NCBI RefSeq assembly: GCF_014174215.1
Contig: NZ_JABEQL010000001.1
Location: 124,001-188,000 of the forward strand
Direction of reading: 5' to 3'
From: Gluconacetobacter tumulicola
GTDB taxonomy: Bacteria > Pseudomonadota > Alphaproteobacteria > Acetobacterales > Acetobacteraceae
DNA: 64,000 nucleotides
Shown: piece after piece, positions 58,159 through 64,000 of the stretch
How positions within the stretch are numbered: the first letter of the stretch is position 1
How the letters are laid out: every line of letters begins with the position of its first letter
Position numbers and translations under genes: made by a program
The notes under the pieces: model-generated
Databases searched by the model: none
What the model was told of the DNA's origin: nothing
The model's input: only the letters and a program-made list of their open reading frames with translations

Positions 58159-59079
58159 TCACGCCCCCTCCAAGACTTTACGGATCGTCTTGGCCGGAGG
58201 TTCCCCGAATGTCTCGGCATAATAGGCTGCAAAGCGCCCGAGATGGAAGAACCCGCATTCCATAGCAATATGGGATACGCCCCTCCGCGCCAGGTCGGGC
58301 GCCAGCATGGCCCGCCTAGCCCGGTCCAGTGCACGTTGGCGCAGCCATACGCGTGGTGTCATGCCGGTCACCTGCAAGAAGGCAGATCGGAGGATATAGG
58401 CCGGAATACCAATTTGTTGCGCAATAGAAGCGACAGATAGGAACGTTTCGTCAGAGTCGTTGATGACGTGGCGAGCCCGGGAGAAGACGCTATATGCAAG
58501 CTTCCCACGCAGGGGGTGCGGGTCCGCGCCATTACTGTTACCGATATATGACACGATCTCTGAAACGCGGTCGGCCACGAGGCCGGGAATAACCCCTTCA
58601 GGTCGTCCTGGAAAGCGTTGCACCATATCCGACGCGGTTGATATCAGCGATGCGAGCCAGCTCGCCATGTATTGCATTTCCGGATAAGCAGGTACTGGCA
58701 CGACTCCACTGATTTTTCGCGGGTCAAACTCCGGCAATGCCATCTGTTCGATCAAGATGTAATAGGCATGACAGTTCTCCTTTCCGGTCACGGTGATTTC
58801 ATGCCCTCCGAGGTGCACGAACGCCTTATCGCGGCGCCGCTCACCGTTAATCAGGCCACTGCCGCTGGCATGAATCGGCAGCACGATGGCAATATTATTC
58901 GGTGGAGGACTGGTGGTCTGACCAACAGCGACTTTTATTTTCTCCTCGATAATTGAAACATTTCCAAAAGACGCGATTTTGACCGAACCCTCGAACGCGC
59001 CTCTCCCCAGTTGCATGTAGCGCTGTTCCCAGTCTGGCAGGGCTGATTCCTGTTCGGACGCGTCGGAAAACCTTTGCAT
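58159..59079 (-). CDS. AraC-family regulator divergent from the amine dehydrogenase genes
   Basis: The 306 residues have a cupin-like N-terminal half (IAIVLPIHASGSGLINGERR, FVHLGGHEITVTGKENCHAYY) and a C-terminal double helix-turn-helix (SVASIAQQIGIPAYILRSAFLQ; ARRGVSHIAMECGFFHLGRFA). The layout resembles FeaR/EutR-type activators of amine catabolism; this is by domain layout, not by close identity. It is transcribed away from the heavy-chain gene across a 156-base region rich in TTGCA elements, so control of the cluster is likely. ATG 59079 preferred over a TTG six codons earlier. Confidence 0.85.
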   Translation of the reverse strand: MQRFSDASEQESALPDWEQRYMQLGRGAFEGSVKIASFGNVSIIEEKIKVAVGQTTSPPPNNIAIVLPIHASGSGLINGERRRDKAFVHLGGHEITVTGKENCHAYYILIEQMALPEFDPRKISGVVPVPAYPEMQYMASWLASLISTASDMVQRFPGRPEGVIPGLVADRVSEIVSYIGNSNGADPHPLRGKLAYSVFSRARHVINDSDETFLSVASIAQQIGIPAYILRSAFLQVTGMTPRVWLRQRALDRARRAMLAPDLARRGVSHIAMECGFFHLGRFAAYYAETFGEPPAKTIRKVLEGA

Positions 59080-59115
59080 CCTGAAATCCTGTGGCAATTT
59101 CGTACCTCGCCATCA

Positions 59116-59182
59116 TTGCATATAAGCAACATATCGAATGCACAATGTTTGTGCAATAAAATTTGCAAAACTGGATATTGCA
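59116..59182. promoter_or_regulatory. Regulatory region with TTGCA/TGCAA elements and a perfect palindrome
   Basis: Contains TTGC-ATATAA-GCAA (59116-59129), the perfect palindrome TGCACAA-TGT-TTGTGCA (59139-59155) and further TTGCA elements at 59163 and 59178, the last two 15 bases apart. It lies between the AraC regulator and the heavy-chain gene. Repeated half-sites are usual for AraC-family activators. Binding is inferred. Confidence 0.55.
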
Positions 59183-59235
59183 CCTCCCATCGACCTGCTA
59201 CCCACAAAGAAACGCTGTCGGGGAGAGAGATTTTG

Positions 59236-60384
59236 ATGGCTAAAATGATCACTGCCGGTTCGTGGCTGATTCTCTTGACCCTGTTTCCCATTGCCGTCCA
59301 TGCTGATGAAGCGGCATTCGTGCCCGAGACCGTCACGGTCAAGACGAGGATATCGCCGGGTCCCAATGTCCTCGTAAACCAGATGGGGATGGCGAGCAGC
59401 ACACTCTACATCTATTCCGCGCAGGACCTGACCCTGAAAGGAAGCGTCAGTGGCGGCGCCTGGGGGCTGTCCACGCTCTCGCGCGATGGGAATACCGCCT
59501 ATATGGCGTCCAGTTTCTTCAGCCGCATCACCTATGGAACCGGTGAAGACATTCTTCAGGTCTTTGACGTGCCCACCAATACGGTAAGGAAGGAAATTCG
59601 CCTTCCGTTCAAGGTCACACAATACACCCCGGATGCCTCGCAGTTACGCCTGAGTGCGGATGAAAAATTCATCTATGTCCAGAACGCGACTCCGGCGACA
59701 TCCGTTACCGTAGTCAATCTTGAAAGCGCCAAGGTTTCCCAGGAAATCCCGCAGCCGGGCTGCTACGGCATCTACCCGGCTACCGAGGGGCACAGTTTTT
59801 CCACTATCTGTACTGACGGCAGCTTCATGACGTTCTCGATGGGGGCGGACGGTACCACCTTCACATCTCGGAAGAGCGAAAAGATCTTCGACGTCGACAA
59901 TGATCCGATTTATCTGGCATCGGCTCGCGCAGGCGATGATCTGTTGTTCATCTCCTATAATGCCAACGTGTATCGGCTGTCAGACAAGAGCGGCGTGATC
60001 AGGAAAGTCAATGTCACCAGTCTCACTCGGGGCGTTTCCGGGAACTGGGGCACTTCGGGTTACGGCGTCCTCAGTTACAATGATGCCAACAATGTTCTGT
60101 TCGTCACAATGTATCCCAATCATCATGAGGGCACCCACCATCGTGGCGGCAAGCAGATCTGGGCCTACGATCTTGCGCGTGGGACGCTGCTCTCCCGCTC
60201 CCCGGTAAACGACATCTCAACGATCGCCGTCAGCACGGGAGAAAAACCATCCCTTTATGGCCTGAATATGAAAAAGAATTTTCTTGAGGAATATGCCGTG
60301 GATAGAAATCACGGATTCTCCCTGAAAAAGACGACACAGCATACAGATTTCGGCTTTGCCACGATGATCATGGGCAACCTGTAA
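59236..60384 (+). CDS. aauB: TTQ amine dehydrogenase heavy (beta-propeller) subunit
   Basis: Periplasmic large subunit of a methylamine/aralkylamine dehydrogenase, 382 residues. A signal peptide (LILLTLFPIAVHA) precedes a seven-bladed propeller of the Me-amine-dh_H family, with MGMASSTLYIYSAQDLTLKG near the N-terminus. A cysteine pair (QPGCYGIYPATEG and STICTDGSFMTF) is like the heavy-chain disulfide. HHEGTHHRGGKQIWAYDL matches the usual HxGSHKxxxxEVW-type region. ATG 59236 has GGGGAGAGAG upstream. The gene order BEDA matches the aau and mau clusters; AADH versus MADH substrate is undecided. Confidence 0.88.
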   Translation: MAKMITAGSWLILLTLFPIAVHADEAAFVPETVTVKTRISPGPNVLVNQMGMASSTLYIYSAQDLTLKGSVSGGAWGLSTLSRDGNTAYMASSFFSRITYGTGEDILQVFDVPTNTVRKEIRLPFKVTQYTPDASQLRLSADEKFIYVQNATPATSVTVVNLESAKVSQEIPQPGCYGIYPATEGHSFSTICTDGSFMTFSMGADGTTFTSRKSEKIFDVDNDPIYLASARAGDDLLFISYNANVYRLSDKSGVIRKVNVTSLTRGVSGNWGTSGYGVLSYNDANNVLFVTMYPNHHEGTHHRGGKQIWAYDLARGTLLSRSPVNDISTIAVSTGEKPSLYGLNMKKNFLEEYAVDRNHGFSLKKTTQHTDFGFATMIMGNL

Positions 60385-60914
60385 TGCAAGCCAACGTCCC
60401 TTCGTGCCTGTCACTCTCGCTTGTTGTCTTTATCCTGCTCGTCTTCCTGCGCGCGAGCGGCCACAAGCTGTTCAGCTTCACTGTATTCACTGGCTATGTC
60501 GCTGACTACAGGCTCATTACAGGACGTTTTTTGTCCTTCGTCTGTGGTGGTCTCGTAGCGGCGGAAATACTGGTCGTTCTACTTCAGTTGCTCCCAATCA
60601 GTCAGATTTTTGGGCTCGTTCTGGCGGCCGGACTGCTGGTTACCTACTCCGCTGGCATGGCCATCAATATTGTTCGTGGACATACCGATATAGAATGCGG
60701 ATGCGGTGGCGCCGTTCAACATTTATCGTGGTCGTTGGTTATTCGCAATTGTATCCTTCTGGCACTGATTTGTGCCGTCGCGATGTATCCATCGCGCGGT
60801 CTTGACGCTTTCAGCACCGAGATCGCTGTCCTCTGCGGCTTTTTGTTTTGGATCGTCTTTCTGCTTAGCGAGCAAATTCTCGCCAATTCATCGTTGGTTC
60901 GTCTTACGCAATAG
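60384..60914 (+). CDS. aauE: MauE/AauE-like membrane maturation protein
   Basis: Integral membrane protein, 176 residues, about five helices, of the MauE/DoxX-like family needed for correct light-chain production, probably passing redox equivalents for disulfide formation. The Cys pair motif lies in IECGCGGAVQHLSWSLVIRN, the place of CGCFG in other MauE proteins. The start overlaps the heavy-chain stop by one base (TAATG). Confidence 0.85.
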   Translation: MQANVPSCLSLSLVVFILLVFLRASGHKLFSFTVFTGYVADYRLITGRFLSFVCGGLVAAEILVVLLQLLPISQIFGLVLAAGLLVTYSAGMAINIVRGHTDIECGCGGAVQHLSWSLVIRNCILLALICAVAMYPSRGLDAFSTEIAVLCGFLFWIVFLLSEQILANSSLVRLTQ

Positions 60915-60939
60915 GACGCCGGCTTCGTGAGGACCTTAC

Positions 60940-61533
60940 ATGAAACTTATCATTTTCATCTTGACTGTAATCGTTCTCCTGCTCGTAGCGCTCTCTCTCT
61001 GTTTGCTCGCGCTCGGTCGCCAGGTAGGTATCCTGTTCGAACGGATCTCTCCCATGGGTGCATTGGTTAACGATTCAGGTCCTGCTGTCGGCCAACGAAC
61101 ACCGGCGTTCAGCCTTCCCAGCCTGACCGGCGGCACGACCGTCATCGGCCCGGGAACGAAGCGCTCGACCATGGTGTTCTTTCTTTCTCCGACCTGCCCC
61201 GTCTGCAAGAAGTTGCTTCCTATCGTACATTCGATCCGGAAGGCTGAAGACAGTTGGCTGGACGTGGTACTGGCCAGCGACGGAGAGACAGCGCAGCACG
61301 AGCGCTTCATCGAGAGAGCGGGCCTGGGAAGCTACCCCTACGTAGTCTCGGCCGAACTTGGAATCGCCTATCGTGTCGCCCGCCTTCCTTACGCGGTCCT
61401 TCTCGACCAGGACGGCATGATCCGTGCCAAGGGGCTGATCAATAGCCGCGAACAGTTTGATAGTCTGTTCAACGCATTCGAGATGAAATTCGGCTCCATC
61501 CAATCCTATCTCGACGCTCAGCCGGCGGCGTAG
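60940..61533 (+). CDS. aauD: MauD/AauD-like periplasmic thiol-disulfide protein
   Basis: Membrane-anchored thioredoxin-fold protein, 197 residues. One N-terminal helix (LIIFILTVIVLLLVALSL) is followed by a periplasmic domain with the redox site SPTCPVCKKLLP (Cys86, Cys89) and RLPYAVLLDQDGMIRAKGL with the cis-proline. MauD proteins help form the six disulfides of the TTQ light chain. It starts 25 bases after the MauE-like gene. Confidence 0.88.
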   Translation: MKLIIFILTVIVLLLVALSLCLLALGRQVGILFERISPMGALVNDSGPAVGQRTPAFSLPSLTGGTTVIGPGTKRSTMVFFLSPTCPVCKKLLPIVHSIRKAEDSWLDVVLASDGETAQHERFIERAGLGSYPYVVSAELGIAYRVARLPYAVLLDQDGMIRAKGLINSREQFDSLFNAFEMKFGSIQSYLDAQPAA

Positions 61534-61603
61534 CAACGATCGATTTCCGCACCGCGCACCCTGTCACAGTCCATCACTTGAAACATGAAAGGAGCCTCCC
61601 CGG

Positions 61604-62143
61604 ATGGCCAAACGGATCGACAACTTGGTTGAATGGGTAGATGGCGTTGCCGAGGCCAGCATGCGTCATCTTGCCGGCATGTCCGGACGCCGAAGCCTCC
61701 TCCACAAGGCCGGAAAAATCTTCATCGGCGGCGCAGTCTTGCCGATGCTGCCATATGATAATTCAAATGGCGTTTCTCACGCCGAAGAACGACATGCAGA
61801 AGGCACGATCCCTGACGACTGCCAGTACTGGCGTTATTGTTCATTGCACGGCGGGCTTTGTAGCAAATGTGGCGGCAGCGTGACCCAATGCCCGCCAGGA
61901 ACCACGCCATCAAAGGTTGCGTGGGTCGGAACGTGCCGAAATCCCAAGGATAACAAGGACTACCTTGTTTCATACAATGATTGCTGCGGAAAGGCAGGCA
62001 GTTGCGGGGATGAATGTACCCGGCAGGAACGCGACCGTCCGGGCTACCGCATGGGCCTTGCGAGCGAATCCAGTTGGTGTATCGCAAATGGAAAGCAGGG
62101 GGTTCACTGCACGGTCGCCATCGTTGTCGGGTTGGCCGAATGA
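61604..62143 (+). CDS. aauA: TTQ amine dehydrogenase light (catalytic) subunit precursor
   Basis: Catalytic subunit carrying tryptophan tryptophylquinone, which oxidises primary amines to aldehydes and ammonia in the periplasm. The 179 residues start with a long Tat-type leader (RR at 29-30 in SGRRSLLHKAG, then a short hydrophobic stretch). The mature part has the cysteine-rich fold with the two TTQ tryptophans Trp107 (VAWVGTC) and Trp158 (SSWCIANG), exactly 51 residues apart as in known light chains. The catalytic Asp126 is in YNDCCGK and Thr170 follows a Cys. The stretch before the second TTQ partner's C-terminal cysteine is two residues shorter than in MADH, and no Tyr aligns with MADH Tyr119. 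Confidence 0.92.
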   Translation: MAKRIDNLVEWVDGVAEASMRHLAGMSGRRSLLHKAGKIFIGGAVLPMLPYDNSNGVSHAEERHAEGTIPDDCQYWRYCSLHGGLCSKCGGSVTQCPPGTTPSKVAWVGTCRNPKDNKDYLVSYNDCCGKAGSCGDECTRQERDRPGYRMGLASESSWCIANGKQGVHCTVAIVVGLAE

Positions 62144-62583
62144 AATCGCGTTTGTGCAGCGTCATGGTATTGATCGCATCGTCATCGCCGGCTTTTGCCG
62201 GTAACGACGGGAAAGCACTCTATCTTGAGACGTGCTCCGGTTGTCACCAGCCATCGGGAGAGGGGCAACCCGGCCTCGCTCCACCGCTGTCCAATGCAGT
62301 ATTGTGGGGCGGACTGGGCGATGCAAAGGCGCGATATATTGCCGCGGTAATGTTGATCGGCCTGAATGGAACGATCAACTCGCAGGGCAATACATACGCG
62401 GGCCTCGCCATGCCGCCGCAATCGCAACTAAGCGACGCACAGTTGGCGTCCATCGCGACCTATGTACTCAACGGTCTGAATGGCGTTGACGCGCATGTGA
62501 CGCCCGATCTGTTTGCAACCCTTCGTCGGACGCCACCCTCGCATCCGGAGATCAAGGCTATGCGCGCGGTTGCAGTCAAATGA
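62140..62583 (+). CDS. Small monohaem cytochrome c
   Basis: Periplasmic c-type cytochrome, 147 residues. A signal peptide (SVMVLIASSSPAFA) is followed by the haem site CSGCH (Cys32, Cys35, His36) and a likely Met ligand in GLAMPPQSQLSD. The start ATG overlaps the light-chain stop by four bases (ATGA), so it is coupled to it and probably accepts its electrons. The fold resembles class I cytochromes that serve periplasmic dehydrogenases. Confidence 0.85.
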   Translation: MKSRLCSVMVLIASSSPAFAGNDGKALYLETCSGCHQPSGEGQPGLAPPLSNAVLWGGLGDAKARYIAAVMLIGLNGTINSQGNTYAGLAMPPQSQLSDAQLASIATYVLNGLNGVDAHVTPDLFATLRRTPPSHPEIKAMRAVAVK

Positions 62584-63023
62584 GATACGATATTCTCTTC
62601 ATTGCCTCAGCCCTGCTTTTCTCCTCCAGTGCGCTGGCAGAGCCATCGGCCCGCACGCGCTATCTACTGAAATGTTCCGGCTGCCATCTTCCCGATGGAT
62701 CAGGAGAGATATCAGGTGGAATTCCGAATTTCGTTGGCAGTGTCGGCGTATTCGCAGACCTTCCCGAGGGGCGCGCCTACCTGATGCACGTTCCCGGCGT
62801 CATTGGATCGAGTATGGATGACAAGGGCATCTCGGACGTCATGAATTATATTATGGAAACGTTTGCCGGCACCTCCCTGAGTTCGGACTACAGATCGTTT
62901 TCTCCGCGGGAGGTTTCCGAACTACGCAAGAAAAATATCGGAAACCTCGTAGAATATCGCCGAAAAGTAGCGGCACTATTGAACAAACGCGGTGTAACTC
63001 TTCCCCCTTATCCCTGGCCGTAA
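62580..63023 (+). CDS. Second small monohaem cytochrome c
   Basis: A 147-residue protein with signal peptide (LFIASALLFSSSALA) and haem site CSGCH (Cys32, Cys35, His36). The body differs from the preceding cytochrome (GGIPNFVGSVGVFADLPEGRA), with a candidate Met ligand near SSMDDKG or later. It overlaps the preceding gene by four bases (ATGA). It may pass electrons on to the terminal oxidase. The two cytochromes share size and the start of the fold but little else, so recent duplication is unlikely. Confidence 0.8.
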   Translation: MRYDILFIASALLFSSSALAEPSARTRYLLKCSGCHLPDGSGEISGGIPNFVGSVGVFADLPEGRAYLMHVPGVIGSSMDDKGISDVMNYIMETFAGTSLSSDYRSFSPREVSELRKKNIGNLVEYRRKVAALLNKRGVTLPPYPWP

Positions 63024-63224
63024 AACACATTCCGCAAAAAACAGTATTTTCCGGATCTGTTTAGGAAACATCCCTCGGGATGAAGCAGGTTGCGCGCGAG
63101 AACACTAAGGCAGGCAGATGACAATACGCCGCAGCCTGCCCAACAGCTCACCTCGTTACAAGATGAGGCTGTGGACGATTGCAAAGGCATCACGCCCGAG
63201 CCAGATCACGCATTTAGGAAAACA

Positions 63225-64000
63225 ATGATGAGTAAATCTCTTTTTCTTATCTTTGATGAGCCGTCCGATCGATATCCCCGAAAGGACGAACATGGAGTTG
63301 GCACGCACCATCGTTGCGACGATATCCGATATTGGATACCCCGCCAACCAACACTGTTCGGCTTTACGTTTCTCCTCACCGCGTCCGTCAGCCTGTCTGC
63401 CTTTGCCGCCGATCACGAGGGTGCAAAACCGTATCATCGTCACAGTCAGGCGAATGCCCATCTCAGCCGGCATGTCGCGCCGCCGCCCGTCGCGAAGGGT
63501 ATCCCACTAAAAGACGAGACTATCCAGGTCAGTGCATCACGTTTCCGGTCGCATGGATCGGAAGCAATGGTCACGCGCCGTGTCATGGACCAGTTTGTGT
63601 CGGGCACCAGCCCGCTGAAGATCCTCTCGGCCACAACCCCAGGGGTGACTTTCGCGTCTGACGATGCTTTCGGCCTCGATACCGCGGCCAACACGCTTTA
63701 CATTCGTGGCTTCAACCAGAGCCAGATTGCGGGAACACTTGATGGAATCCCTATGGGTGATCAAGGATTTCTTCAATACAATGGACTCGGTGTGGATCAG
63801 GCCGCCATTCAGGATAATATCGTGGCCATGAGCGTGTCGCAGGGTGGTGGGGCGGTCGATATTCCATCCGCGCAAAATCTGGGCGGAGCAATCCAATTCC
63901 ATACCTCCGATCCGGATGATCGAATGGGGGGACGAGTCTCGCAGATGTTTGGAAGCAATAATGCTGTCCGGACCTTTGTCCGCCTTGACAGTGGGAAGCT
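63225..64000 (+). CDS. TonB-dependent outer-membrane receptor, 3' end cut by window edge
   Basis: N-terminal part of a TonB-dependent receptor, frame open to the window end (258 residues visible). A long N-terminal stretch (to about residue 65) contains a membrane-type signal (FTFLLTASVSLSAFAADHEG), preceded by about 40 hydrophilic residues. The plug domain follows with PLKILSATTPGVTFASDDAF, TLYIRGFNQSQIAGTLDGIP and AVDIPSAQNLGGAIQF. ATG 63225 (or 63228) has AGGAAA upstream; a later start near the signal cannot be excluded. About 200 bases with no gene separate it from the cytochromes, so it may have its own promoter. Confidence 0.82.
   Translation, partial: MMSKSLFLIFDEPSDRYPRKDEHGVGTHHRCDDIRYWIPRQPTLFGFTFLLTASVSLSAFAADHEGAKPYHRHSQANAHLSRHVAPPPVAKGIPLKDETIQVSASRFRSHGSEAMVTRRVMDQFVSGTSPLKILSATTPGVTFASDDAFGLDTAANTLYIRGFNQSQIAGTLDGIPMGDQGFLQYNGLGVDQAAIQDNIVAMSVSQGGGAVDIPSAQNLGGAIQFHTSDPDDRMGGRVSQMFGSNNAVRTFVRLDSGK

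Follow-up and report, generated by a model that had tools for sequence, protein, structure and literature searches.

The cofactor tryptophan tryptophylquinone (TTQ) is made from two tryptophans of the enzyme itself. To our knowledge, the only system in which its biogenesis has been elucidated is that of MauG with methylamine dehydrogenase (MADH), and we know of no solution for TTQ formation in the MauG-less branch of the aromatic amine dehydrogenases (AADH; aau genes). The locus considered here lies at 58159-63023 of a 64,000-nucleotide stretch of the Gluconacetobacter tumulicola genome (contig NZ_JABEQL010000001.1, positions 124,001 to 188,000; hereafter the window), where a divergent AraC regulator is followed by genes for a heavy chain, MauE, MauD, a TTQ light chain, and two haem proteins that we call H1 and H2. 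We propose that H2 is a candidate to stand in for MauG in building TTQ, a role to which the sequence evidence gives about an even chance.

The nearest solved relative of both chains is the aromatic (aralkyl)amine dehydrogenase of Alcaligenes faecalis, encoded by aauBEDA. Chistoserdov's abstract of 2001 reportedly gives the order aauB, E, D, A, in a cluster said to be without mauF/G/L/M/N, and a small monohaem cytochrome c encoded by orf-2, 3' of aauA. Compared with that cluster, the one in the window has an additional ordinary cytochrome c, H1, between the light chain and H2, and is distinguished by its AraC regulator and a TonB receptor. We take orf-2 to be, probably, the H2 homologue. The closest annotated cluster examined, aauB-mauE-mauD-aauA-cycA-cycA on a Pseudomonas aeruginosa plasmid, has the same order as the window, with 54% identity in the light chain and 42% in the heavy chain. 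The mauRFBEDACJGMN clusters of Paracoccus and Methylobacterium share homologous heavy and light chains, MauE, and MauD (light chain 37% and heavy chain 28% identical to P. denitrificans MADH), whereas amicyanin, MauJ, MauM, and MauN genes do not lie between the cluster genes of the window or directly 3' of them. MauG and further tryptophylquinone enzymes are treated in PMC7876137 and PMC6405878, from whose main texts the terms "AADH" and "aromatic amine" are absent. The literature searched gave no account of TTQ formation in AADH and no role for H2, and a proposal may exist elsewhere.

The cluster almost certainly encodes a periplasmic TTQ-dependent amine dehydrogenase. Its light chain (61604-62143, plus strand) matches PF02975 with 148 bits (E 1.5e-43) and carries both cross-link tryptophans, W107 (codon 61922-61924) and W158 (62075-62077), with Asp126 and Thr170 spaced as catalytic residues; for the residue identities, their numbering, and the AADH spacings we rely on what we take to be the established assignments. 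Neither the tryptophans nor the Asp vary among 19 aligned light chains, including that of the window, and the Thr is Ser in many; the window light chain is without some of the cysteines usual in the CSCCGG and CGKxxCxxC stretches. In view of the PF02975 match, a QHNDH of the CTQ (qhp) kind was set aside. Against solved structures, the heavy chain (59236-60384, plus strand; PF06433, 94 bits for a cut-off of 21), a beta-propeller of the AADH type, scores 143 bits with AADH (best 2i0s_A, E 1.1e-40) and at best 74 bits with MADH (E 6.7e-20). The light chain scores 142 bits with AADH (2agl_D, E 2.4e-40), versus 115 bits with the highest-scoring MADH entry (a precursor that includes its leader) and 94 bits with mature MADH chains. 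The mau-type MADH models TIGR02658 and TIGR02659 were missed, with 101.9 bits for a cut-off of 454 and 121.9 for 196.9, and the MauF and MauG profiles had no match anywhere in the window. By sequence, then, the cluster is of the aau type, nearer aau than mau among solved structures. The first-pass annotation had read the locus as a complete TTQ amine dehydrogenase module, more aau than mau, with mauF, mauG, mauJ, and amicyanin genes not adjacent. All of this was borne out except the word "complete", which does not apply in the known sense, the cluster being without any known TTQ-building enzyme.

The same annotation had called two cytochromes c, and this stands for H1 only. H1 (62140-62583, plus strand), whose ATG at 62140 overlaps the light-chain stop, is an ordinary class I cytochrome c (PF00034, E 7.8e-13) with a distal Met (codon 62410-62412). 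H2 (62580-63023, plus strand), whose start overlaps the H1 stop, is a small monohaem protein with one CxxCH motif (CSGCH, 62673-62687) in which the Met-ligand loop is excised and the Met-equivalent residue is Gly73 (62796-62798); by sequence it is not an ordinary carrier. The window's H2 matched nothing in Pfam or NCBIfam at E 0.001, and it is not among the 41 of 74 H2 members that match PF00034. Nor does it resemble MauG, a two-haem protein of the CCP_MauG superfamily, as is BthA. H2 belongs to another family, with about 125 mature residues, a single CxxCH, and no PF03150 match, and its likeness to MauG is confined to the proposed role of oxidising the TTQ precursor.

The loss of the loop is general in H2. 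We collected 182 H2 open reading frames (ORFs), reduced to 179 and then to 112 non-redundant sequences; three without a readable haem motif and one with two motifs in frame (L152) were left out of the alignment. All 18 columns of the 18-residue loop before the ligand Met are deleted in 112/112 non-redundant H2 and kept in 45/45 H1. The ligand-Met column holds Met in 98% of the 45 H1, whereas in H2 Gly occupies it in 90% and neither Met nor His occurs there, so that the distal Met of the class I His/Met haem is absent throughout, although the CxxCH motif and a c-552-like fold of that class are retained. CxGCH is present in 110/110 H2 of the first non-redundant set. Four positions ahead of the first Cys, 94% have Tyr and the others Trp or Phe, and outside the haem motif conservation stays below 60% at every Met, His, Lys, or Cys column. 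No H2 fused to other cluster genes was found among the ORFs of the fetched loci.

The closest solved structure to H2, by profile and by fold, is Thermus thermophilus cytochrome c-552, including its C-terminal extension. The profile match (E ~5e-23) leaps from chain residue 51 to 73, skipping 21 Thermus residues (52-72), a stretch that presumably holds the ligand Met69. The AlphaFold2 model of the window H2 (pLDDT 93.7, pTM 0.87) also has Thermus c-552 as its nearest fold (TM 0.61-0.65). Since both the loop and the ligand Met are gone, the distal face of the H2 haem should be open and its iron five-coordinate.

We examined the neighbourhoods of light chains from searches of the family, the phylum, and the class, up to about 9.5 kb on either side. 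To these were added 20 regions of one other family, 16 plasmid loci chosen from 31 records, and the best 80 of 595 named GTDB loci, which are mostly Pseudomonas and other Gammaproteobacteria since the first entry of the query was such. Eight chosen profiles were run over all frames, with seeds from the window genome's own genes and, for MauG and MauF, from annotated mau clusters. The 210 light-chain ORFs comprise 161 unique ones, matches under 100 bits (L283, Thermomicrobium) being excluded. H2 adjoins 140/161 unique light chains, 138 by rule and two by inspection (L115 and L256, with long ORFs); the H2 of L222 was counted though it lies on the opposite strand, between two pairs. MauG and MauF lie near 10/161 (13 loci), both partners near 0/161, and neither near 11/161; H2 was found at 0/13 of the loci having MauG and MauF. 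Among the best 80 of the 595 named loci, H2 is present at 75. In five genomes (G1072 and G1153-G1156), one MauG-type cluster coexists with one of the H2 type, and each keeps its own partner. H1 accompanies 52/138 H2-adjacent light chains; the likely acceptor thus varies while H2 is constant.

The co-occurrence is near-perfect in the samples searched. In the family, where H2 was searched in 397 genomes sampled like those of the light-chain search, matches of at least 101 bits occur in 36/36 light-chain genomes and in 1/361 without a light chain, the next-best match of any kind scoring 52 bits. The sole exception, G145 (66% complete), has a contig that starts inside H1 just before H2, and its light chain would lie off the contig end. 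In a 299-genome phylum sample, H2 scores at least 96 bits in nine genomes, all light-chain carriers, and the others at most 46 bits; the profile includes sequences from some of the searched genomes, which favours the positives and not the gap to the negatives.

In a light-chain tree (160 chains, 110 columns, quick search, with many forks unresolved and several long branches, and L208 left out as too short), the MauG type forms one clade with full SH-aLRT support. The window light chain falls in a supported set of 15, all of the H2 type, and the MauG-type chains in a clade apart. The exchange of partners between H2 and MauG amounts to one change on this tree.

MauG relatives elsewhere in the genomes bear on the same question. 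A CCP_MauG match (E 0.001) is present in 54/70 light-chain genomes and was not detected in 16/70, all of which have an H2 cluster. Some of the 16 are fragmented bins from which such a gene could be missing; three (G797, G453, and G585) are single-contig genomes, so in these it is unlikely that TTQ is made by a MauG relative. The window genome itself has four CCP_MauG proteins, which score 87-222 bits with the MauG profile; the divergent MauG that lies beside MauF in G1072 and its relatives scores 165-207 bits, and the profile does not separate it from those four. The nearest of the four to the cluster, a two-haem protein at L006:16604-17920, follows a phosphoesterase some 13 kb downstream from the light chain of the window.

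We propose that the heavy and light chains would oxidise a primary amine to an aldehyde and ammonia, with electrons leaving the dehydrogenase singly to H1, and that MauE and MauD would insert the light-chain disulfides. In this aau-type cluster TTQ would be built independently of MauG. The role would fall to H2, which resembles cytochrome c-552 except for its missing Met-ligand loop and whose haem iron may be open: it would bind the dehydrogenase precursor and, using H2O2 or O2, would take electrons from, or oxygenate, the paired W107 and W158, thereby substituting for the unrelated two-haem MauG and its companion MauF. H2 fits a cofactor-building factor because it is constant, specific, exclusive with the known alternative, and likely to have an open iron. 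An acceptor would be expected to retain a good redox ligand and could be exchanged among lineages, as H1 is. In its full form, as a TTQ synthase of the aau branch, a one-haem, loop-excised, peroxide- or oxygen-using cytochrome c following a route distinct from the textbook one, the proposal is a tentative one that we hold at slightly under an even chance.

Several points weigh against this assignment. Eleven heavy/light pairs adjoin neither H2 nor MauG/MauF (L099, with L104 and L108; L084; L255; L259; the first pair of L213; L215; L229; L202; L228; L258; and L208). Two of them, L258 and L208, are at contig ends. For eight of the pairs the same genome or bin contains an H2 cluster at another site; within the fetched sequence, this does not hold for L202, L208, and L228. 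Over 52 loci, the distance correlation with the light chain is 0.81 for H2 and 0.80 for H1, which does not separate them. Because the exchange of partners is a single event on the tree, exclusivity alone cannot distinguish an H2 that replaces MauG from one that accompanies the aau branch on other grounds; by itself, one exchange is weak functional evidence, and an obligate electron partner would yield the same co-occurrence. A single haem has no obvious counterpart of the two-haem bis-Fe(IV) state of MauG, and the function proposed for H2 is read from its sequence and a model. Foldseek matches of that model are weak (best E 3.3e-3, none below 0.001). A catalytic set made up of the strongly conserved H2 residues Asn, Arg, and Glu was considered and dropped: these residues are also present in Thermus c-552 and for that reason look like framework. 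Part of the clean split between H1 and H2 arises by construction, as they were sorted by profile score, and no intermediates were seen, family-search scores dropping from 101 to 52 bits. Finally, the haem motif is unreadable in three H2 copies (L095, L134, and L181), at least some of them probably through sequence errors. The DNA of L095 is 99.7% identical to that of L096, which has an intact motif, pointing to an error or to recent decay.

The main rival, which we regard as unlikely though a serious contender, is that aau-type dehydrogenases use H2 as their dedicated electron acceptor or docking cytochrome, with TTQ made by something else. The loss of the loop would bare the edge of the haem, allowing electrons to pass quickly from TTQ, and H1 or an azurin would relay them. 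In favour of this reading, H2 lies beside 140 of the 161 light chains and has a cytochrome c-552 fold; in public records it is annotated as cytochrome c-552 precursor, cytochrome c, or hypothetical protein. However, a haem deprived of its Met ligand should carry electrons poorly, H2 is retained with or without H1, and it is exclusive with MauG/MauF, yet MauG-type dehydrogenases need an acceptor too.

Less probable still, and in our judgement rather improbable, is that H2 is some other structural or assembly factor, such as a light-chain chaperone or a haem-dependent sensor, and that TTQ is made by an unlinked enzyme unrelated to MauG or forms largely on its own, with O2 or a metal. Where a genome has no CCP_MauG match at all, something else must indeed be in use, and nothing direct speaks against this explanation, the comparison having covered eight chosen gene profiles. 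The first hydroxylation in MADH is described in PMC7876137 as thought to be autocatalytic.

That a two-haem, MauG-like protein acting in trans makes TTQ instead, be it L006:16604-17920 or any of the genome's three others, is very improbable: the G1072-type MauG does score no higher than these four, but CCP_MauG proteins are common bacterial peroxidases and the 16 of 70 light-chain genomes without a detected match mean that such a protein cannot be the general answer, which leaves this explanation to the window genome alone.

The remaining genes of the locus agree with the order and coordinates first annotated for 58159-63023, their family matches being far beyond chance level, with one correction. 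The heavy-chain ORF has its mechanical start at 59074, and its likely start, read from the sequence, is the ATG at 59236, 3' of a purine-rich stretch. The AraC-family regulator (58159-59097, minus strand) matches PF12833 (HTH_18, E 5.5e-16); of the NCBIfam models, AndR and EutR matched it partially, far under cut-off. On the plus strand, the MauE-like membrane protein (60384-60914) matches PF07291 with 79 bits (E 6.5e-22), and the MauD-like thioredoxin-fold protein (60940-61533) passes the TIGR02661 equivalog with 197.9 bits for a cut-off of 188.6. Downstream of H2, a TonB-dependent receptor (plus strand; PF07715 and PF00593) runs from 63090 to 63998 and past the window end, with 870 residues in L006; it is possibly involved in substrate uptake, as a putative member of the operon. 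The cluster was probably acquired later, because the G+C content of its genes is 0.52-0.58 versus 0.657 in positions 1-57000 of the window. Just past the window end, a few kilobases from the TTQ cluster, the minus strand of L006:9141-11735 carries a flavin amine oxidase (PF01593, with a Tat-like leader), a cytochrome c, and a RidA-like protein (PF01042), a set that resembles a second amine-oxidation system with a cytochrome acceptor.

The genome (4.29 Mb, 90 contigs) contains three heavy/light pairs, in the window and on contigs C26 and C9. The C26 order (L004:7363-11554) is heavy, MauD-like, light, H2, MauE, MauD; that of C9 is heavy, light, H1, H2. The window chains are 36-39% (light) and 27-33% (heavy) identical to those of the other two pairs, and because they are so divergent, the three dehydrogenases probably differ in substrate. 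The C26 cluster thus has two MauD-like genes, one of them between the heavy and light chains, an arrangement repeated in several genomes of the same genus.

Such a dehydrogenase had been presented as an extension of the oxidative periplasmic repertoire of the acetic acid bacteria, to which the host plausibly belongs; it is no first case, given the three systems of this genome and a light chain over cut-off in 36/397 sampled genomes of the family. Fourteen of these are of the same genus, the window genome included, and no member of the genus is among the 20 family genomes listed without a match. The light chain also occurs in 12/398 phylum genomes and 12/385 class genomes, the window genome being counted in each. 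Three genomes of genus g60 (L098, L099, L103, L104, and L107-L109) have three heavy/light pairs packed into some 30 kb of a single contig; one of these pairs is without adjoining H2, MauE, or MauD. Outside Pseudomonadota, a Thermomicrobium roseum plasmid (L283) encodes a MauE-domain protein and has three ORFs that are light-chain-like but divergent (35-47 bits); heavy chain, H2, and MauG were not matched in that neighbourhood.

The MauG-less kind of cluster is commoner than the MauG kind among the clusters sampled, a biased sample, and in the samples searched H2 is a single small gene, constant in and specific to the MauG-less clusters, with a structural reason to suspect catalysis. If the role proposed for H2 is true, the majority of the sampled TTQ dehydrogenases, those of the aau branch, would build their cofactor by a route other than the textbook one. 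It would also mean that the loss of a loop can turn an electron carrier into a tryptophan-oxidising enzyme, and that one haem in a new fold would do what MauG does with two.

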